A program made the position numbers and the translations under genes. DNA of 64,000 nucleotides from Candidatus Krumholzibacteriota bacterium. Its GTDB lineage: Bacteria; Krumholzibacteriota; Krumholzibacteriia; Krumholzibacteriales; Krumholzibacteriaceae. Below the pieces are notes generated by a model. The model was not told the origin of the DNA, ran no database searches, and was given only the letters and a program-made list of their open reading frames with translations. This document shows positions 14,547 through 40,162 of this stretch, one piece after another. Position 1 is the first letter of the stretch; the number at the start of each line of letters is the position of its first letter. The stretch covers positions 1 through 64,000 of the forward strand of contig JAUWCL010000015.1 of the NCBI GenBank assembly GCA_030609325.1, given 5' to 3'.

Positions 14547-15580
14547 AGGAGCGGCTTGTCGGCCTGCGGAAGCACCTCCCCTATGACGGCGGCATACCCG
14601 GCGCCGGAATTCCTGAGACTATCTGCGAGATCCTGCGCCTTTTCTGCGGGCAGTGATATCAGCAGGCCGCCGGAGGTCTGCGGGTCGTGCAGGAGCATCT
14701 TTTGTTCCCTCGTCAGACTGCCCTCGACCTCCAGGGAAATGTTCGTGTACTCCAGGTTGGACATTCCACCGCCGGTGAGAAAGCCGTGCGAGGCGAAGTA
14801 GGCAGCATCGGGAAGAAGGGGAACGGCTTCCATGTAGATCGCGATCGTGATGTCCGAGCCGTCGGCCATCTCGAGCGCGTGGCCGGCCAGCCCGAATCCG
14901 GTGACGTCTGTGCACGCGTGAGCACCCGCCGCGACCATTGCCCTGGCCGCCGGTGCGTTGAGGGCGATCATCTGATCGATGAAGAGTCTCTCCTGCTCCG
15001 CGTCGAGGGCCCCGTTCTTCAGCGCCGTCGAGTAGATGCCGGTGCCGAGCGGCTTCGTCAGGACGATCGCGTCGCCCGGCCTGGCGCCCGCGGTGAGCAC
15101 GACGTTGTCGGGATGGATCGTACCGACCACGGAGAGGCCGTACTTAAGCTCGGAGTCCTTGAGCGTGTGCCCGCCGACGATTACGGCACCCGCCTCGTTG
15201 ACCTTGTCGGCACCGCCCCGCATCAGGAGTTCGAGCGCCTCGATCTCGAGCTTCCCCTCAGGAAAGCCGATGATGTTGAGCGCCGCTACGGGCTCCCCGC
15301 CCATAGCGTAGACGTCGCTCATCGCGTTCGCAGCAGCGACCTGCCCGAACACGTAAGGATCGTCCACTATTGCGGGGAAGAAATCGACGGTGAGGATAAT
15401 CGCCCTGTCGTCGCTTATGCGCACTACGCCGCTGTCATCCGACTGGCTCGTGCCGACGATCAGGTCGGGATGATCCTGAGGGGGCATCTTCTGTAAAACT
15501 GGCCACAACTCCGTCGGGCTGAGCTTGGAAGCTCAGCCCGAACACGAAGCCATGGCCGTCAAACGGTACTTCTTTGACAT
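14534..15580 (-). CDS. selD: Selenide, water dikinase with selenocysteine in the active site (in-frame UGA)
   Basis: SelD makes selenophosphate from selenide and ATP, the selenium donor for Sec-tRNA and selenouridine. Reading through the TGA at 15533-15535 gives a 348-residue protein starting at the ATG at 15580 with AAGGG 6 nt upstream. The N-terminus then contains CSGUASKLSP, the SelD active-site loop in which many organisms have Sec or Cys. Stopping at the TGA would leave a 324-residue fragment beginning after the catalytic residue. The rest is canonical: GTSQSDDSGV, TVDFFPAIVDDPYVFGQ, SDVYAMGG, IVGGHT and DPQTSGGLL. A perfect 12-bp hairpin includes the TGA. It is preceded by a ferredoxin gene 31 nt upstream. 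The organism must therefore encode selA, selB and selC elsewhere. Confidence 0.93.
15515..15540 (-). promoter_or_regulatory. SECIS-like hairpin at the selD UGA codon
   Basis: On the mRNA strand CGGGCTGAGCTT and AAGCTCAGCCCG are perfect 12-bp complements around CC. The UGA codon (15535-15533) lies in the 5' arm. Bacterial SECIS elements lie at or just after the UGA inside the coding region, so a role in Sec insertion is plausible. It looks like a terminator stem but has no T-run and is inside the gene. Confidence 0.55.
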
Positions 15581-31199: not shown

Positions 31200-31964
31200 T
31201 CAGTTGCACGATTCTCGTCCGGGTGTGGAGTAACCTATAAGGACCGATTCGGTCACCGTCACCTTTGACCTGGTCTCGCGCGGGTTCCTGCCTCCCGGAT
31301 AGCTCGTCTTCGAGGTCCGTTCCACACGGCTTCTTACGAGGCCCCAGAAAGGCACTTCAGAGGAGATCCTCAGGATGCTCCTCTCCTCCTCGAACCGCTC
31401 CGCCGTGATCCCTCCCATCGCCACGTCGCGCCTGTCGCTCCTGAAGTACTCGAAGACGTCGCACCTGAAGGTCCCGGCCGGGACCTCCACGCTCTCCGGT
31501 TCGAACTCCCGGCGCTGCAGACCTTCGCTTCGCCTGAGGAAGAGCCTGCCGATATCGAAATCCTCGATCTCCTCAAAGGACGGTTCCCTGAAAGGCTCGG
31601 TGCCGTCCCTGACAAGGATGTCACTGATGCAGGCGTAGAACTCCTCGGGAGTCTTCATCTCTCCCGCGCCGGCGCACAGGGTGAGACGAACGGTGATCGT
31701 CTCCGCGTCGACCGGAGGCCAGGTGGTGGAGGTTATCTCGAGGCCGGCCCCGCCGGAGCCATTTCCCGTCACCTCGAGCGTGACGAACGAGCTGTCCCGG
31801 ATGCCGTGAGCCTCCGATATGATCAGGTACGATACCAACGTCCCCGCGGTGAAATCGACCGAGTGCAGCGAGACTCCGGGCACGAGAAAGTCGACTTCCG
31901 CCGTGGCGGGAGACGATGCGACGATCAATGTTCCCAGCGCGAGACAGGCCGATATATGATTCAT
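31200..31964 (-). CDS. Exported protein of unknown function
   Basis: A 254-residue protein I do not recognise. Starting at the ATG at 31964 (GGTGG 9 nt upstream) gives a signal peptide ending near ATAEV. The mature part has a beta-rich pattern (FVTLEVTGNGSGGAGLEI, SVEVPAGTFRCDVFEYF, FWGLVRSRVE) and Cys only in two places. The EVPAGTF/CDVFEY region is shaped like a DUF3108-type or lipid-binding periplasmic fold. It starts 16 nt after the stop of the selenoprotein cytochrome-type lipoprotein upstream, so the two are probably co-transcribed. Confidence 0.7.
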   Translation of the reverse strand: MNHISACLALGTLIVASSPATAEVDFLVPGVSLHSVDFTAGTLVSYLIISEAHGIRDSSFVTLEVTGNGSGGAGLEITSTTWPPVDAETITVRLTLCAGAGEMKTPEEFYACISDILVRDGTEPFREPSFEEIEDFDIGRLFLRRSEGLQRREFEPESVEVPAGTFRCDVFEYFRSDRRDVAMGGITAERFEEERSILRISSEVPFWGLVRSRVERTSKTSYPGGRNPRETRSKVTVTESVLIGYSTPGRESCN

Positions 31965-31980
31965 GGGATCATCCACCTGT

Positions 31981-33369
31981 TTATCTGTGAGCCTCGGCGG
32001 CGCCTGCGCTGTCGGCCAGCGCCCTGTGCCCCACCTTCGCCCAGAAGGTCTGAAAATCGAAATGAGGGCTCTGCCTGGCGTCATGGCATTCCCGGCAGAC
32101 CTTCCTCGCCCTCTCCCTGTATTTACCGTTGCGCGTGTGTTTTGTTCCCGGTCCGTGACAGGCCTCGCACTGGACGCCCCTGAGGTTGATGCCGCCCTTC
32201 TCATCCGATTCGGGGTCGTATCCGCTGAACCCGCCGTATCCCGTGGTATGGCACGGAAGACATCTGGCGTTTCTCTCGTTCCCCGACTCGGTGAGCTTCC
32301 TGAAGCCGCGGAAGTGAGGGCTGACCATAAAATCCGAGGCGGTGCCGTCGTGGCAGCGCGCGCAGGTCTCCATCCCGAGATACTTCTCTCGCAGCTTGCC
32401 CGTCAGGGGATTGCGCGAAACGAACTGCGTGACCTGCATCCTCTTGCGCCTCTCACCATCCTCGAGATAAAAATCGCTGAGCATCGAGGCGACCATCGTA
32501 TCTATCGGTGCCGACCTGGGAAGGGTCACCAGCATCGTGTCGGTCAGCTCCCAACCGCCGCGCACCGGAGTCATCACTACCCACCCGAGAGCGCGTCCCT
32601 TGTCCCCCGAATAGAGGACCGGGACTCCGAGGTCCTGGAACGATCCACCGGTCGTGTCGGCGCAGTCGCTCAAAGCCTTCTCGCCCCGCTCGGTGTGCCC
32701 GCGGATCACGAGATCTATCCCCGCAATATCGAGGAGCAGCGGCTCGAGCATCTCGCGCCGGAAGTGGGCGAGGAGAATCACCATATCGCACCCCTTCTCG
32801 CGCAGCTCGGCGGCGACATCCATACCCTCGGCGAGCGGATCTTTAAGATCGATACCGGTCCCATTTGGGGGATCCTCTCCGAGCAACGCGAATATCCCGA
32901 TCCGTGAGCCGCCGGCCTCCCTTATAACGTACGGAGGAAAGATCCTTTCCCCATCCAAATAAAGATTTGCGCAGATCACGGGAAGGCCCGTCTGCGCCTC
33001 CTCCCTTATTGCCTTGAGCTCGTACGACAGCTCGTTCTCGCCGACGGCGACGGCATCATACCCGGCCAGCACCATCATGCTCGCGAGAAACCGGCTCCTG
33101 TACAACTCGAGGATGCCCTTCCCGGCATAGAAATCGCCGGCTGAGAGAAGCAGCAGCTCGGGGGCCTCCACTCTCATCCGCTTGAGCTCCGCGGCCCGCC
33201 GGGCCACACCACCTGAGGCGGTCTCGCCTCACCCGGCAGGGACAAGGCGCCCCTGCGTGTCGCCGGTAAATACTATCGTCACCGGTTCCTTCGGGGAGCA
33301 TCCCGCCGCGAAGGCGAAGAAGAGAAGAGCCGACAGTTCCAACTTTAATATCGAGGATATCAGTGTCAT
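31981..33369 (-). CDS. Metallophosphoesterase-like tetrahaem cytochrome lipoprotein, predicted selenoprotein (in-frame UGA)
   Basis: Reading through the TGA at 33229-33231 joins an otherwise orphan signal peptide to a 408-residue frame, giving 462 residues from the ATG at 33369. The N-terminus has lipobox FAAGC (Cys 24), then VFTGDTQGRL and PAGUGETASGGVARRAAELK. As I recall them, proteins with this layout have a PCGC motif before GGLARRA, and Sec (residue 47) sits at the second Cys. The phosphoesterase half keeps AGDFY, GENEL, LAHF and GHTE, with several metal ligands changed (DTQ for DxH, GEN for GNH), so hydrolysis is doubtful. The C-terminal part has four CxxCH haem sites: CARCH, CLPCH, CEACH, CRECH, as in the cytochrome c554-like fusion family. 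Likely a periplasm-facing redox lipoprotein. There is no Shine-Dalgarno sequence; a promoter abuts the start. Confidence 0.83.
33214..33231 (-). promoter_or_regulatory. SECIS-like hairpin at the UGA of the cytochrome lipoprotein gene
   Basis: On the mRNA strand TGAGGCG, loop AGAC, CGCCTCA forms a perfect 7-bp stem whose 5' arm begins with the UGA itself. A second hairpin GGCCC/GGGCC with loop GGC lies 24-36 nt after the UGA and also fits bacterial SECIS spacing. Which one is used cannot be decided here. Confidence 0.5.
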
Positions 33370-33376
33370 GTGTATG

Positions 33377-33404
33377 ATTTTAACGTGTAAAGAAAAAGGG
33401 GCAA
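33377..33404 (-). promoter_or_regulatory. Promoter overlapping the HU terminator, before the cytochrome lipoprotein
   Basis: TTGCCC, 16 nt, then TAAAAT on the minus strand; the -35 lies in the descending stem of the HU terminator. The start would fall at or within 2-3 nt of the ATG at 33369, predicting a leaderless mRNA. The gene indeed lacks a Shine-Dalgarno sequence. Confidence 0.4.
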
Positions 33405-33428
33405 AGCGAAAATGTTCTCCTTGCCCCT
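33389..33428 (-). terminator. Rho-independent terminator of the HU gene
   Basis: On the minus strand AGGGGCAA pairs with TTGCCCCT across a 16-nt loop, followed by TTTTCTTT. It lies 19 nt after the HU stop codon. Confidence 0.85.
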
Positions 33429-33446
33429 GAATACTGCAAACCCCCG

Positions 33447-33740
33447 TTACTTGGCTACACGGCCCTTGAGAGCCTTGCCGGCCGAAAAGGCGGGGAACTT
33501 GGACGCCGGAATCGTGATGGTCTCGCCCGTCTGGGGGTTGCGGCCCTTGCGTTTCTTGCGCTTGCGGGTCTGGAAGGTGCCGAATCCAGTGATCTGCACT
33601 CTTCTGTTGGCTGCGAGCTCGGTCGCGATGATGCCTTCCTTCGGAGCGGTGCTGAAGATCGCATCGACCGCTATGGCCGAATCTTTCTTTGTCATGCCAG
33701 TCTTCTTGGCAACCTTCTCGATGAGATCGGTCTTGTTCAT
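33447..33740 (-). CDS. hup: HU/IHF-family DNA-binding protein
   Basis: A 97-residue nucleoid protein. The first 45 residues form the helical dimerisation part ([20 protein letters not shown]) and the rest the beta-arm with the RNPQTGE motif at the arm tip (about residues 67-73) and the DNA-intercalating Pro. Slightly longer than typical HU (90) because of an insert around [24 protein letters not shown] precedes the ATG, a strong ribosome-binding site. It is a single-gene unit with a consensus-like promoter and a strong terminator. Confidence 0.96.
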
Positions 33741-33772
33741 TTCGTATCACCTCCTTCGCTTCCGTAATTGAA

Positions 33773-33782
33773 CTGGCGCCAG
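33773..33782. promoter_or_regulatory. Palindrome at the HU transcription start
   Basis: CTGGCGCCAG is a perfect 10-bp palindrome whose edge touches the -10 hexamer and which covers the predicted start. It could be an operator or an initial-transcript hairpin; short palindromes also occur by chance. Confidence 0.35.
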
Positions 33783-33809
33783 ATTAGCGCGGCCTTATTG
33801 GGCTGTCAA
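33781..33809 (-). promoter_or_regulatory. Promoter of the HU gene
   Basis: On the minus strand the consensus -35 TTGACA, 17 nt, then TAATCT. The start would be near 33774, about 35 nt before the ATG. Confidence 0.75.
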
Positions 33810-33907
33810 GACTTTTATGTCCGATTTTCCCGTTCTTATCACTTTTTTCGGGGGTGCGCCGCCCGCAGGCCGCAACAGTACAGGAAAAACGCATATCGGC
33901 TCGAACC

Positions 33908-33929
33908 GGATTCCTCAGTTGAGGAATCC
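33908..33929. repeat. Perfect inverted repeat across the lptD stop codon
   Basis: Arms GGATTCCTCA and TGAGGAATCC (10 bp) with 2 nt between. On the transcript the hairpin includes the stop codon; no T-run follows at once, though a short one comes about 25 nt later. It may act as a weak terminator or protect the 3' end. Confidence 0.55.
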
Positions 33930-36900
33930 CGGCACCGTCCCGCCAATCCCCCGCTTTCCCTGTTCGTACTTGATGTCGCGGTGTGCCTTGATCTGTATCT
34001 GGAAGTAGTAGGAGTAATCGTCGCCGAACCTGCGGTGCACGAATCCCGCCTGCCAGCAGTGAAGGTCTCTTGTGAGGCTGTACTGCTGCGACGTGAACGC
34101 GCCCCGCTCGATATCGAAATAGGAGCTGAAGGTTATCTTCCAGTTATTCGTCAGGTTGAGATTGCCCCTCATGTCGACCTTGCTCGTCGGCCTGGACATG
34201 CTCGAGCCACCGAAACCCGAATAGCTGTACCCGAGGTTGAAAGACCAGCTCGTGCCCCGTCCCGGAGCGCCGGGCCGCCCCGATTTGCCGGGCTGTTCGG
34301 ACCACCTGTCTTCCTCCTCGAAATCGGAGACGAAGCCGTCGTACGTGTCGAGCTCGTCGATCTCCTCATCTTCCTGCTCCTCCTCCCGCACCGAGCCGAG
34401 CTCCTTGGCCACCCTGATCTTCTCGCGCTCCGGCACATCCCACTTTCCGAGCCACGAGAAGCCGCCGCCGAAGCTCATGTTCGTCGAGAAACTCGTCGAG
34501 AGGATTTCCCATTCGTAGGGATCGACCGTGTTGTTGAGAGATATCGAGACACGCCTGCCGACCGACGTCCTGATGCTCGACCGGATGTTCGAGAACTGCT
34601 TCTTCGACGCCTCGGGATCGTACGAGCCGCTCATGTTCCACGTGAAGGCGTTGTTCTTCTTCATCTCCTGGCCGTCCTTGAGGTATTTCAGGTCGATTAC
34701 GTTCCTCAGCGACCAGCTGTACCCCTGCGACGCCCTCTGGTTCGACGTCAGCGCCGGGACGTACGACCAGGAGACCGACGGGTTGAACGTATGGCGGATC
34801 CCGACGAGAGAGCCCATCTTCGGGTAGAAGACTCCGTACAGTGTCGTCCCTATGCCGAGGGAGAAGCGCATCGACACCTCGTTCCTGTACCTGATGTCCG
34901 GTGTCGGGCCCGACAGGTCCGTGCCGTATACCGGCATCCCCGGCGTGATACCGATCGCCGGATAGATTCCGTTCGCGATGTCGACGAATTCCAGCGAGGA
35001 TTCCGCCCCCTCCAGGCTGGACGCAAACCTGAATCTTCCCGTTCCGTCCCCGCTGTCGAGCCAGTCAACGGTCACCTGGTCCGATCCCCAGCCGGGCCAG
35101 GAGTTGATTGAGCTCTCGATCTCAAAGGCAAGCGAGGTACCGATGTTGTATACGCCCTCGGCTATCGTGATATCGTCGCTCTCCCAACCGTTGAGGATTA
35201 TCCTCAGGAGGTTGTTCGAGGGATCGACCGTGATCGGCACCGAAACGGTGTCACCCGTCATGATGGCCGGCTGGGACGGCAGGACGTACTTCAAATTGAT
35301 CTGGTCCTTCAGTGTCTTGGCGTAGCGCCAGTTCATCCCGATCGCCGGCGCGATGTTCAGGCCGATGAACCTGTTCTGCTTGCTCAGCGACGCGCCGGAG
35401 CTCGCCGTTACTTCTTCTTTCCTTCTCGCGTCGCTCTGCGACGTGGTCCGTGTCGCTTTGAGGTTGGGCGCCCAGGTGACTTCGCGGAGGATCCCCTCCC
35501 AGACGCCCTTTTCCGAGCCCGAGTGCTTCTCGCCGAACCACAGCGACATCCTCGGCAGATTGAGTGACAGGGACGGAAGGGTACCCGAGATGCTCACCTC
35601 GTTCGGGTTGTCGGAGCTGACGCTGAGCTTCTGGTTCCTGCTCGCCGAGAGACCGAGCCGCGTGCCGCCCCAGTTCCTGTTGAAGCTGACGGTCGAGTAT
35701 ATCCGTCTGTCCACCACGCGGGCGACGTCGTCGGCGCGGTAGACCGAAGACGGCGCCTCGTCGCTGCTCACAAAGCTGAGATTGCTGCGAAGCGAGGCGG
35801 TCTTGCCAAACGTCTGGTTGTGGCTCGACTTGAACGTCCACTCATATGATTTCCTGTTGAAGTCCCTGAAGAAATCGAGGTTGACGTTTCCACCGAGCAC
35901 ATACCTGACCTTGTACCTGTTGGTCAGGTGTATACGGAAGTTATTGTTCTCGTTGAAATCAGTCGTAAGTATGAAATCGGTGTAGTCGTTCGTCGCCCAG
36001 TAGTACCCGATCCCCCTGATGAACCGGCCGTCGCGGCTGTTGATGCCGATGTCGAAGTTAGGACGGAGTAATCCCGACTGGCGGCCGCGGCGTATCGAGT
36101 TGACCATGAACGGAAGCCAGAAGCAGGGAATCTCGCCGATGTAGAGAGTTATCGGGCCGGATACGATCTTGTCGTCGATATAGACCTTCATCTTGCCGGC
36201 GCGCATCGAGTAGTGCGGCTTCCTGTAGTCGCATGTGGTGTAAGTCGACCCGTAGACCTTGAGCACGTCGTCGCCCTGCTTGAAGATCCTCTTGCCGAGA
36301 TAATACCCCTGGTCGTACTTGGTCGATCCGTCCATCACGAGACCGCCCTCGGTCTCCATATCGTACCCCATCCCGTATCCGTACATCATCTGCCCGTTCT
36401 CGTCGAGCGCCGGCTCGCCGTGCGCATCGAGGATGTTGAGCCTTGAGCTGAAGTTTATGAATTCGGCGGTCAGGGTCTTGTTCTGGTAGTTCAACTTCGC
36501 GCCGACATGCATGACGAAGTCCTCGGTCGTGGCGAAATACTCGATCTCGCTCGCCTCGTAGGTGATCTTTTCGGCATCCCTGCTGAACTCCCTGAATACG
36601 ATCGAGCTGTCGACTATCGCGGCGAGGGAGTCGATCGACTCTCCCGCGCCGAGGTTGAGATAGTTGTACGTACCCGAGGAGTTGCCGGAGATCTTTACAT
36701 ACCTCAGGTCAGGCCCGTCGAACCTGAAGAACATCGTGTCGCCCCTCGAGTAGTTGTTCGAGATCTTGTTCTCGGTCCCCTCGAAGGGATAGTACATCGC
36801 CCTGGCGTTGCTGAAGATCTGTACCGAGTCGACCTCGTCGTTCGACATGTGTATCACGATCGAGTCACCCTCGATCCACGAGTCCTCGGTCCACGGGGAT

Positions 36901-37844
36901 TCGGGTCTGGGAGCTTCGGTGAGAAGGCCCTTCTCGGGCAGCACGATCCTCTCCACGCCTTCGTCCTCGTAGTACAGGAGCACCCGCTCGCCCGACATGC
37001 CCGACGGACCGCTGCTCGCGGTAGGGCTGCCGAAGAGCTCCATGTACCCCTCGCCGTTGAAAATCGCCGCCGAATCGCATTTCGCCCTCGTGCGCCCCTT
37101 GAGCATGTTGACGTTTCCTACGGCCGTGCCGATGTCCTTCTCCATATCGTAGCTCATCCACTCGCTCGTCACCCGCCCCTCCTCCTCGGCATGGTCGTCA
37201 AATACGAGGACCGGTCGTTCGTACATGATCGCCATGCCGGTGAGACGGTGGAACCGCGCGCGCGCGCCGGAAACAGAGAAGTCTTCCGATATGTCTATTA
37301 TGACTACGTCCTTCCACGCGTCTGCGATCTCGGTCGACCTGTCGTAGAAGATCGAGTCGGCGTACATCACGCGTGTGCTGTCGGAGAGGCGGACGTTGCC
37401 GATCAGGACAAGTGTTCCTTCATCCCTGTCGTACTCGGCCCTCCGACAGGTCACCTCGAGCCCCTCGTCGATCAGCCTCACGTTGTCGATCATGATCAGG
37501 ACGTTCGTCTCGCCGAAATACTCGCCGAGGTCGCTGAACATCCGCATCGATCCGTCGACTCCGCGGACGTCTCCCTCTAGTATCGTGTGCTTGAGCTCGG
37601 GATAGTGGCGCCCCCGCTCGCTCGTTACGGTGGCGGTCTGGTGGTCGATTCGGACGTCGCCCTCCATGTGCCAGATCTGGAGCCCGTCCTCGACCCTCGA
37701 CTTGAATGTGTTGAACCTGATCCGGTAGAGAGACGTGTCGCCCTGCGATACGACGTTCTGCTGTGCACGGGCCGGGGGCGGCGTTCCTCCGGCCGCGGAA
37801 AGTATCGCGGCGATCGCCGACGTTATTGCGAGGACCCTTTTCAA
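33915..37844 (-). CDS. lptD: LptD/OstA-family LPS assembly outer-membrane protein
   Basis: A 1309-residue protein, much longer than proteobacterial LptD (~780), starting at a TTG 10 nt after GGGAGG. Residues 1-27 are a signal peptide. Residues ~45-420 are several OstA/LptA-like beta-jellyroll repeats (MEGDVRIDHQTATVTSERG, LEGDVRGVD, LIGNVRLSDSTRVMYADS), so LptA- and LptD-type parts are joined. The barrel follows (PCFWLPFMVNSIRRGRQSG is the typical LptD entry motif). Residues ~860-967 are an extra domain inside the barrel region resembling flagellar hook/FliD-type folds. A strongly acidic loop (REEEQEDEEIDELD) lies near residue 1150. Expected to insert lipopolysaccharide or a related glycolipid into the outer leaflet. 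Confidence 0.9.
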   Translation of the reverse strand: MKRVLAITSAIAAILSAAGGTPPPARAQQNVVSQGDTSLYRIRFNTFKSRVEDGLQIWHMEGDVRIDHQTATVTSERGRHYPELKHTILEGDVRGVDGSMRMFSDLGEYFGETNVLIMIDNVRLIDEGLEVTCRRAEYDRDEGTLVLIGNVRLSDSTRVMYADSIFYDRSTEIADAWKDVVIIDISEDFSVSGARARFHRLTGMAIMYERPVLVFDDHAEEEGRVTSEWMSYDMEKDIGTAVGNVNMLKGRTRAKCDSAAIFNGEGYMELFGSPTASSGPSGMSGERVLLYYEDEGVERIVLPEKGLLTEAPRPESPWTEDSWIEGDSIVIHMSNDEVDSVQIFSNARAMYYPFEGTENKISNNYSRGDTMFFRFDGPDLRYVKISGNSSGTYNYLNLGAGESIDSLAAIVDSSIVFREFSRDAEKITYEASEIEYFATTEDFVMHVGAKLNYQNKTLTAEFINFSSRLNILDAHGEPALDENGQMMYGYGMGYDMETEGGLVMDGSTKYDQGYYLGKRIFKQGDDVLKVYGSTYTTCDYRKPHYSMRAGKMKVYIDDKIVSGPITLYIGEIPCFWLPFMVNSIRRGRQSGLLRPNFDIGINSRDGRFIRGIGYYWATNDYTDFILTTDFNENNNFRIHLTNRYKVRYVLGGNVNLDFFRDFNRKSYEWTFKSSHNQTFGKTASLRSNLSFVSSDEAPSSVYRADDVARVVDRRIYSTVSFNRNWGGTRLGLSASRNQKLSVSSDNPNEVSISGTLPSLSLNLPRMSLWFGEKHSGSEKGVWEGILREVTWAPNLKATRTTSQSDARRKEEVTASSGASLSKQNRFIGLNIAPAIGMNWRYAKTLKDQINLKYVLPSQPAIMTGDTVSVPITVDPSNNLLRIILNGWESDDITIAEGVYNIGTSLAFEIESSINSWPGWGSDQVTVDWLDSGDGTGRFRFASSLEGAESSLEFVDIANGIYPAIGITPGMPVYGTDLSGPTPDIRYRNEVSMRFSLGIGTTLYGVFYPKMGSLVGIRHTFNPSVSWSYVPALTSNQRASQGYSWSLRNVIDLKYLKDGQEMKKNNAFTWNMSGSYDPEASKKQFSNIRSSIRTSVGRRVSISLNNTVDPYEWEILSTSFSTNMSFGGGFSWLGKWDVPEREKIRVAKELGSVREEEQEDEEIDELDTYDGFVSDFEEEDRWSEQPGKSGRPGAPGRGTSWSFNLGYSYSGFGGSSMSRPTSKVDMRGNLNLTNNWKITFSSYFDIERGAFTSQQYSLTRDLHCWQAGFVHRRFGDDYSYYFQIQIKAHRDIKYEQGKRGIGGTVPGFLN

Positions 37845-37880
37845 TCGACTCGTTCCTCCCGGCTGCAGCGCCGGCCCGTC

Positions 37881-38816
37881 TCAGTCCGTTTTCCCGAGCG
37901 CCATCATCGAAGCCCCGACGAGCGAGGCCATGTTTCCGAGCTCCGCGGGGACGACCTTCACCGCGGCGAATATGTCGGCCATCAACTGCCCGCGCATCGA
38001 TTCCCTCGCCGGTCCGAGGATCAGGTCCCCGGCTCCGGCCACCCCGCCGCCGACGGCGATCACCTCGGGATTGAAGAGGTGCACGATGTTCGCAAGCCCC
38101 GTTCCGAGCGCACGGCCCGCGGCGGCGAACGCCTCGATCGCCACCTCGTCCCCGTCGGCGGCCGCCCCGGCGACATCTCTCGACGTGAGGCTTTCGCTGT
38201 CCTCGAGGACCGATTCAGCGCCGGCCGCGATCGCCGACCTGGCCCTCGAGACTATCGACAAGGCGTTGGCCATCGCCTCCAGGCAGCCGGCCGTGCCGCA
38301 GGCGCATTTCGGCCCCGCCGGATCTATGACCTGATGGCCGATCTCGCCGGCCATACCCTGCCATCCACGATAGAGACGGCCATCGGCGATCACCCCGCCT
38401 CCTATTCCCGTTCCCAGCGTCATGCAGACGAAGTGCCGCGTCCCCCTGCCTGCCCCGAGGACATATTCGCCCCATGCGGCGCAGTTGACATCGTTGTCGA
38501 CTATCACCCGCATACCGAGCGCGCCGGAGAAGAGTCCGCAGAGATCGAGATCCACCCAGCCGGGCAGGTTCGGGGAATAGTACAGGTATCCCCTCGAGCC
38601 GTCTATCAGTCCCGCGCAGTCGATGCCTGCGGCAACCATCTCCGGATGGCCGTTACGTTTTCCCTCGAGCCACGCAGCGATCCTCTCCGCCGCCTGCCGC
38701 GGGCCTTTTCCGGCCAGGGTGGGTATCTTCCCGCTCTCGACTATCTCGCCCTCCGCCGACACGATGCCCAGCTTGATGTCCGTGCCGCCGATATCAACAC
38801 CGAGTATTTTCTTCAT
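37881..38816 (-). CDS. ROK-family sugar kinase
   Basis: A 311-residue kinase of the ROK family, probably glucokinase-like. The N-terminal phosphate loop is LGVDIGGTDIKLG; the ROK zinc signature is H in GHQVIDP followed by CACGTAGCLE; the catalytic Asp is in VDNDVNCAAWGE. Start probably the ATG at 38816, 8 nt after AAAGGA (an ATG at 38831 is within the site). It lies between folC and lptD with short gaps (26 and 36 nt), so it is likely part of accD-folC-rok-lptD. Substrate (glucose, N-acetylglucosamine or other) not decidable. Confidence 0.88.
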   Translation of the reverse strand: MKKILGVDIGGTDIKLGIVSAEGEIVESGKIPTLAGKGPRQAAERIAAWLEGKRNGHPEMVAAGIDCAGLIDGSRGYLYYSPNLPGWVDLDLCGLFSGALGMRVIVDNDVNCAAWGEYVLGAGRGTRHFVCMTLGTGIGGGVIADGRLYRGWQGMAGEIGHQVIDPAGPKCACGTAGCLEAMANALSIVSRARSAIAAGAESVLEDSESLTSRDVAGAAADGDEVAIEAFAAAGRALGTGLANIVHLFNPEVIAVGGGVAGAGDLILGPARESMRGQLMADIFAAVKVVPAELGNMASLVGASMMALGKTD

Positions 38817-38842
38817 CTCGTTTCCTTTCACCGATGCGCCGC

Positions 38843-40162
38843 CTACATTCGGGCGACGGCCTCCGCAACTGCAAGATGCGATCCGAGTATCAGCATCGTA
38901 TCGCCCGGCCCCGTCAGCCTGCCGACAAGCTTCATCGCCCCGGCCATTCCGCGAGTCGGCCTTACCGTCGCCGGAATACTGCCTGCCGCCGCTGCAGCCT
39001 CACCGGAAAAGCTCGCGGCGAGTTCGTCCCGCCCGGCGGCCCCTTTTTCCTTGAGGGGCACCAGAATTATCTCACGCGCAGAGCGCATGGCCTTCGCCGG
39101 AAACCTGCCCAGTCGTTTCCTGGCCATCACACCGAACACGATGATGTTCCTTTCAGGGGGAGAGAGTTCGAGAAGCGTATCGAGCGAGGCGCATAGCGCC
39201 TCCTCATTATGTGATACGTCGAGAATCACCCGTGGTTCCCCGCTCAGCACCTGAAATCTTCCGGCGAATGCCGCACCGGCCAGCCCCTTCCTTACAGCGG
39301 CCCTGCCGGGACGACGCCCCGGCAGGAAGATCTCGGCCGCCCTTACCGCCGTCGCCGCATTGGAGACCTGGTGCCGCCCGATCATCCTCGTTCTCACCGT
39401 TCCGTAATCACGCAGCGGTGTGGCGAGAGAAAAAGTCATTTGCGAGACAGCCATACTCCCCGCCGATACATCGACATCCCGTGATACCGGATAAAACGGG
39501 ATACCCGTCTTCACGCAGTGCCTGCCCGCCCTTTCCTCGAGGGCCTTCGTGGACAGATTGGCGACGAGAGGGGCGCCCGGCCTCGTTATGCCAAGCTTCT
39601 CGTCGAGTATTCTCGCCCTGGTCCTGCCGAGATGTTCGCTGTGGTCGATTGCGATTCCGGTTATCACCGTGGCTCTCGCGTCGACGAGCCTCGTCGCATC
39701 GAGACGGCCCCCGAGGCCGACCTCGTAGACGGCCGCGTCGACATTCCGCTCGCGGAACCATATCGCCGCGGCGGCGGTGACGCCCTCGAAGAAGGTGAAC
39801 GGCGTCTCGCTGTAACCTTTCTTCAACTTTCCGATGATGCGGTCGAGCTCCGGGCTGGGGATTTCCTCGCCGTCGATCCTGATCCTCTCGTTTATCCTGA
39901 ATAGATGGGGCGAATAGAAGGTGCCTGTCCTGAGGCCCGCGGCCCGCAGGATCGACGACACGAATGTCGTCACCGAGCCTTTTCCGTTAGTCCCGGCGAC
40001 GAGGATAGCGGGTACGCCTGCCTGCGGATCCCCGTGAGAACGGAGGAGGGCGGTGATGTTCTCGAGGCCGAGCCGCATCTTCGTCGGTCTCAATGAGAAG
40101 AGAAAGTCGATTGAGGAAAAGGGGATTTCCCTACCTGATGAGCGTGATCGTGTTCTGGCCAT
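38843..40162 (-). CDS. folC: Bifunctional folylpolyglutamate synthase / dihydrofolate synthase
   Basis: FolC adds glutamate to dihydropteroate and to folates. The 439-residue protein has the ATP loop VAGTNGKGSVTTF near residue 56, FYSPHLFRINERI, the Mur-ligase-type GLGGRLDATR, and DVSHNEEA. The start is uncertain: only the GTG at 40162 is available in frame upstream of the conserved SSIDFLFSL region, which overlaps the accD 3' end by 32 nt. The accD-folC order is common in bacteria. Confidence 0.9.
   Translation of the reverse strand: MARTRSRSSGREIPFSSIDFLFSLRPTKMRLGLENITALLRSHGDPQAGVPAILVAGTNGKGSVTTFVSSILRAAGLRTGTFYSPHLFRINERIRIDGEEIPSPELDRIIGKLKKGYSETPFTFFEGVTAAAAIWFRERNVDAAVYEVGLGGRLDATRLVDARATVITGIAIDHSEHLGRTRARILDEKLGITRPGAPLVANLSTKALEERAGRHCVKTGIPFYPVSRDVDVSAGSMAVSQMTFSLATPLRDYGTVRTRMIGRHQVSNAATAVRAAEIFLPGRRPGRAAVRKGLAGAAFAGRFQVLSGEPRVILDVSHNEEALCASLDTLLELSPPERNIIVFGVMARKRLGRFPAKAMRSAREIILVPLKEKGAAGRDELAASFSGEAAAAAGSIPATVRPTRGMAGAMKLVGRLTGPGDTMLILGSHLAVAEAVARM

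Follow-up and report, generated by a model that had tools for sequence, protein, structure and literature searches.

A gene of a Krumholzibacteriota bacterium very likely encodes an exported, lipid-anchored, UshA-like selenoprotein that carries four haems. It lies at positions 31981..33369 on the minus strand of the window (the whole 64,000-nucleotide stretch of DNA that was analysed), and is a complete coding sequence of 462 amino acids, counting a predicted selenocysteine (Sec) at residue 47, with a TAA stop; both halves are common to its orthologues. We propose that the product has a 5'-nucleotidase-type fold, in which Sec47 sits on the loop following the first strand, and that a tetrahaem cytochrome c554-like domain comes next. 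The UGA codon would be decoded by SelB and tRNA-Sec, aided by a hairpin some 25-39 nt downstream. We assign this identity and decoding route a probability of roughly 0.88.

The gene occupies a single frame (33369-31981, minus strand), in which the only internal TGA is at codon 47 (33229..33231) and the only other stop is the terminal TAA. On that strand, the read-through order is MTLISS...AAGC(24)SPKEPVTIVFTGDTQGRLVPAG-TGA(47)-GETASGGVARRAAELK..., and the residues flanking the codon, TGDTQGRLVPAG-U-GETASGGVARRA, fall between the lipobox Cys24 and most of the metallophosphoesterase domain. A signal peptide whose lipobox ends at Cys24 (33298..33369, minus strand) predicts export and a lipid anchor; Cys24 is near-invariant in the orthologue alignment, A1. 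The attachment of c-type haem takes place outside the cytoplasm. Thus, the signal peptide located 5' of the TGA and the haem sites located 3' of it mark both halves as parts of one protein. Also encoded is a cytochrome c assembly protein.

The TGA is strongly conserved. In a family-level genome search, every orthologue that covered the site had TGA at the same codon (18 of 20 genomes), and no orthologue in those 20 genomes had a sense codon there; one genome, 82% complete, yielded just a distant Cys paralogue. Protein identity to the window protein in A1 is 45-87%, on both sides of the invariant TGA column. None of the orthologues has a further internal TGA, the second one counted in L029/L056 being the terminator. 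A survey of the phylum gave matches in 75 of 80 genomes, with TGA present in nearly all full-length matches. In all of the Sec-type loci that we read in the phylum, the aligned codon is TGA; a few related forms (e.g., L160 and L161) have Cys at the Sec column. Outside the phylum, Eisenbacteria and Thermodesulfobacteriota loci have TGA at this column, and those of Nitrospinota and others have Cys. Judged from these alignments, the alternation of TGA and Cys is a classic U/C exchange, and the TGA at 33229-33231 almost certainly encodes Sec47. One homologue, L095 (match at 61-1533), shows PSG-Arg (CGA) where its relatives show PCG-U, both motif residues being gone; this may reflect a sequencing error or a decaying site.

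The means to decode such a codon are encoded in the same assembly, which contains selB (351 bits, above the cut-off), tRNA-Sec (selC; 71.5 bits vs. a cut-off of 47) and selA (408 bits). The window itself holds selD (14639..15565, minus strand; TIGR00476, 365.9 bits), with one in-frame TGA of its own at 15533-15535. The sequence around that codon, MASCSG-U-ASK, and a GC-rich inverted repeat that spans it are consistent with a Sec-type SelD.

Neither a tRNA scan nor an Rfam scan of the window gave a match; because of the latter result, the SECIS element was judged by comparison. The candidate hairpin, TGGCCC-GGC-GGGCCG (33192..33206, minus strand), occupies positions 26-40 (T of the TGA = 1), and its apical loop begins with G. 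A TGGCCC-GG[C/A]-GGGCCG-like sequence is common to 19 close orthologues at these positions. As the hairpin overlaps the codons of a conserved V/L-A-R-R-A, synonymous codon choice was tested. Ala56 is encoded by GCC and Arg57 by CGG in 16 of 16 sequences, and synonymous identity at codons 55-60 is 0.79 against an expected 0.29, the highest excess of 400 six-codon windows gene-wide. Pair counts revealed no covariation among the 19 close orthologues because the stem hardly varies in them, and a wider set of 31 Sec homologues from several families was thus used. In this set, 96.2% of cells are paired, and the covariation score was reached by none of 500 shuffles. There are 12 two-sided stem changes vs. 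a shuffled mean of 3.0, a count to be read as a strong indication and not as an unbiased sample, the sequences having been hand-picked for diversity and equal spacing. One stem pair varies as G-C, A-U, C-G, U-A and U-G, and shifting the stem partners along the sequence abolishes pairing. Folding of single sequences gave weak z-scores. Cys-coding homologues lack this hairpin, the sole regex match (L117) lying elsewhere in the stretch. In deltaproteobacterial PCGU genes (L073, L077, L079, L082, L085-L087 and L097), the hairpin predicted 3' of the TGA is a different one, which lies nearer to that codon and has a slightly larger loop than the hairpin of the Krumholzibacteriota genes.

These results uphold much of what an earlier note on this DNA had put forward, namely an in-frame TGA without a frameshift, a Sec at residue 47 replacing the second Cys of P-C-G-C (borne out by the U/C exchange), and a Sec-containing SelD in the same genome. 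That note had also advised looking for selA, selB and selC, for a SECIS after the TGA and for homologues with Cys at its position; all were found, the SECIS as a SECIS-like hairpin with synonymous conservation and covariation.

Two other readings of the TGA were considered. If the gene were a pseudogene, or the codon a sequencing error or nonsense mutation, the downstream part would be dead or would restart at GTG 33207, and a 408-residue ORF with a GTG start does exist 3' of the TGA. However, the identical TGA recurs in many independent assemblies, with coding constraint on both sides. Further, a restarted product would have no export signal, which haem attachment requires, and the codons around GTG 33207 make up the candidate SECIS hairpin. 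Given the conservation of the TGA across species, we rejected these explanations, whose probability we regard as negligible. A changed genetic code or general read-through, with UGA standing for Trp, Gly or another residue, would also account for a UGA in frame. It is hardly more credible, and was rejected as well: several orthologues terminate this same gene with TGA, the aligned residue elsewhere is Cys, the genome has Sec machinery, and a site-specific hairpin lies 3' of the codon.

The selenoprotein so read has two recognizable domains. Pfam places Metallophos at residues 31-226 and Cytochrome_C554 at residues 335-406, both above cut-off. The first, at 32521..33285 (minus strand), is a UshA/5'-nucleotidase-like metallophosphoesterase domain with altered metal ligands, as judged from Pfam, a structure model, Foldseek and a survey of the ligands. 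The model has a pLDDT mostly above 90 in this domain, and Foldseek matches it to CD73/UshA with an E of about 1e-22. The haem part is modelled with low confidence (pLDDT block means of 36-73). Its four haem sites, CARCH (32350..32364), CLPCH (32248..32262), CEACH (32155..32169) and CRECH (32083..32097), all on the minus strand, are invariant in orthologues. The extra His352 and His411 are also invariant in the orthologue alignment, as in the cytochrome c554 pattern. The Pfam matches, the fold match and the four CXXCH sites agree with the earlier description of the product as a metallophosphoesterase-like tetrahaem lipoprotein.

The earlier note was mistaken, on the other hand, in holding that a Sec form of this family had not been described; such a form is already known. 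UshA-like (COG0737, CxU) selenoproteins appear in a 2008 marine survey (PMC2398784) and in two later reviews (PMC9312934 and PMC13188914). The passages that we read in these papers give no tested function. A literature search for selenoproteins in Krumholzibacteriota yielded nothing relevant. The family is also catalogued as NCBIfam NF041198 (UshA_like_PCGU), whose model aligns with the window protein in two stretches (1.9e-57), one of them corresponding to the C-terminal part of the model. Like the proteins of that model, ours combines a metallophosphoesterase domain with a C-terminal multihaem region (the model spans both), has Sec at the same column and contains four CXXCH sites, which are found in nearly all PCGU loci that we read. 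It differs from them in having Ala for the first Cys of PCGU and, within a longer stretch that follows His225, a Cys236 specific to its clade. Its score is 195.1 bits, below the curated cut-off of 275, whereas the PCGU relatives L073 (484 bits) and L064 (290 bits) surpass it; L073, which is a PCGU protein from Syntrophaceae and has four haem sites, matches the model over its whole length. The window protein thus shares the domain architecture of NF041198 and common descent with PCGU proteins, but has neither the score nor the PCGU/PCGC motif. Given these two departures, we class it as belonging to a derived variant clade of that family, and not as a member of NF041198 as defined.

Other relatives are less close. 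The proteins of NCBIfam NF049981 (UshA-like (seleno)protein family 2) are likewise UshA-type Sec proteins, but the window protein scores 38 bits against that model's cut-off of 140, the motif listed there is CxxU, and the model's 262 positions are too few to include our haem domain. The N-terminal domain has the fold of the UshA and CD73 5'-nucleotidases, whereas its metal ligands are altered and haems take the place of their substrate-binding C-terminal domain. The C-terminal domain resembles cytochrome c554 (PF13435, 42.4 bits vs. a cut-off of 20.8), but is here fused to a Sec-bearing metallophosphoesterase domain. Finally, the SoxB thiosulphohydrolase has a related metallophosphoesterase domain, with weak similarity; the window protein, however, scores 42 bits against a SoxB cut-off of 550. 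To our knowledge, SoxB has neither haem nor Sec. Its kinship offers a weak hint that sulphur compounds are the substrate.

The feature that sets the window protein apart is the loss of the partner Cys. The earlier note had envisaged a PCGC-type site; this stands for Sec at the second Cys and fails for the first, which is Ala45 here (33235..33237, minus strand), so that no CGU redox pair is present. The motif in the window protein is PAGU, and the first-Cys position is occupied by A, S, G, Y or F throughout the clade. In a tree of 67 homologues (a quick FastTree build with midpoint rooting, in which L178 is a fragment starting past the Cys45 position), the 22 Cys45-less sequences form one clade with a support of 1.0, nested among PCGU forms; its nearest relatives, L154/L155, are both PCGU. 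Cys45 was thus lost once. All 22 clade sequences have Cys236 (32662..32664, minus strand), which lies in the stretch following His225, longer here than in PCGU forms; sister PCGU families lack this residue, and the sole Cys aligned with it outside the clade is in L085, where the alignment is poor. The loss of Cys45 and the gain of Cys236 fall on one branch, and their coupling therefore has no statistical weight; the alignments are only suggestive of a link between them. A Cys45-less variant of the family in one order of Krumholzibacteriota appears to be new.

These facts bear on what the protein does. Since the Sec/Cys column, Gly46, Gly53-54 and the haem residues are constant across the wider family while the metal ligands vary, we infer that the domain has ceased to be a phosphatase and now serves as an extracytoplasmic redox enzyme. 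Sec47 would be the reactive centre in the former catalytic pocket, and the haems would carry electrons to or from it; such a redox use of Sec47 together with the haems is, in our estimation, somewhat favoured. As all 22 clade members are without Cys45, Sec must work here without its CxU partner. The Se-S pair of CxU may have been rebuilt, with Cys236, from a different loop of the pocket, replacing the lost Cys as the resolving thiol, or the haems may cycle Sec47 directly. We advance this idea tentatively, and we are equally hesitant about Cys236 as a relocated partner of Sec47. If true, the rebuilt pair would constitute a Sec-to-haem electron-transfer enzyme outside the cytoplasm.

Another possibility, which we consider rather unlikely, is that the protein is still a metal-dependent hydrolase, with Sec47 acting as a metal ligand or giving the pocket its shape, and with the haems in a structural or regulatory role. 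The metal ligands of UshA are D-x-H, GD, GNH, H and GHxH, and the corresponding positions of the window protein are Asp37, Gln39, Asp79, Glu111, His202 and His225. Nearly all clade members keep Asp37, Asp79, Glu111, His202 and His225; metal binding and hydrolase chemistry may thus persist. The match of the fold to UshA and CD73 favours this explanation as well, and the loss of the partner Cys speaks against a classic thiol-disulphide cycle. Against it, nearly all members have lost the His of D-x-H, most having Gln, Glu, Arg, Asn or Lys instead, and Glu takes the place of the Asn of GNH. In one clade member (L059/L146), Asp79, Glu111 and His225 are gone as well, yet it keeps Sec, Cys236 and the haem sites as far as its truncated contig reaches. 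Additional ligands are gone in other related PCGU families of the phylum. Further, Pfam found no match in the window protein to the nucleotide-binding C-terminal domain of the nucleotidases.

The clade offers a natural experiment: a whole order has retained Sec and the four haems while dropping the partner Cys. The neighbouring Cys is thus dispensable, and the Sec and haems are not. This points to Sec-haem chemistry and narrows the choice of assays. The clade is missed by the curated motif and score cut-off, and its products are likely annotated in truncated form.

The gene order folC, ROK kinase, large outer-membrane protein, HU and selenoprotein (window 31200-40162, minus strand) is conserved across the order, and is partly preserved in the class as well as in one Eisenbacteria genome. 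These neighbours gave no pointer to the substrate. A second UshA-like paralogue, which is shorter and lacks haem sites, also has TGA, at PCG-U or PCT-U (L037, L038, L040, L042 and L044; in the source genome, C3:41968-42633). Two of its representatives scored 104 and 130 bits, below the NF041198 cut-off, and it may be another uncatalogued Sec form. A third paralogue has SCGC with Cys codons (L041, L043, L045 and L035; in the source genome, C24:13208-13975). Sec and Cys paralogues thus coexist in the same family of genomes.
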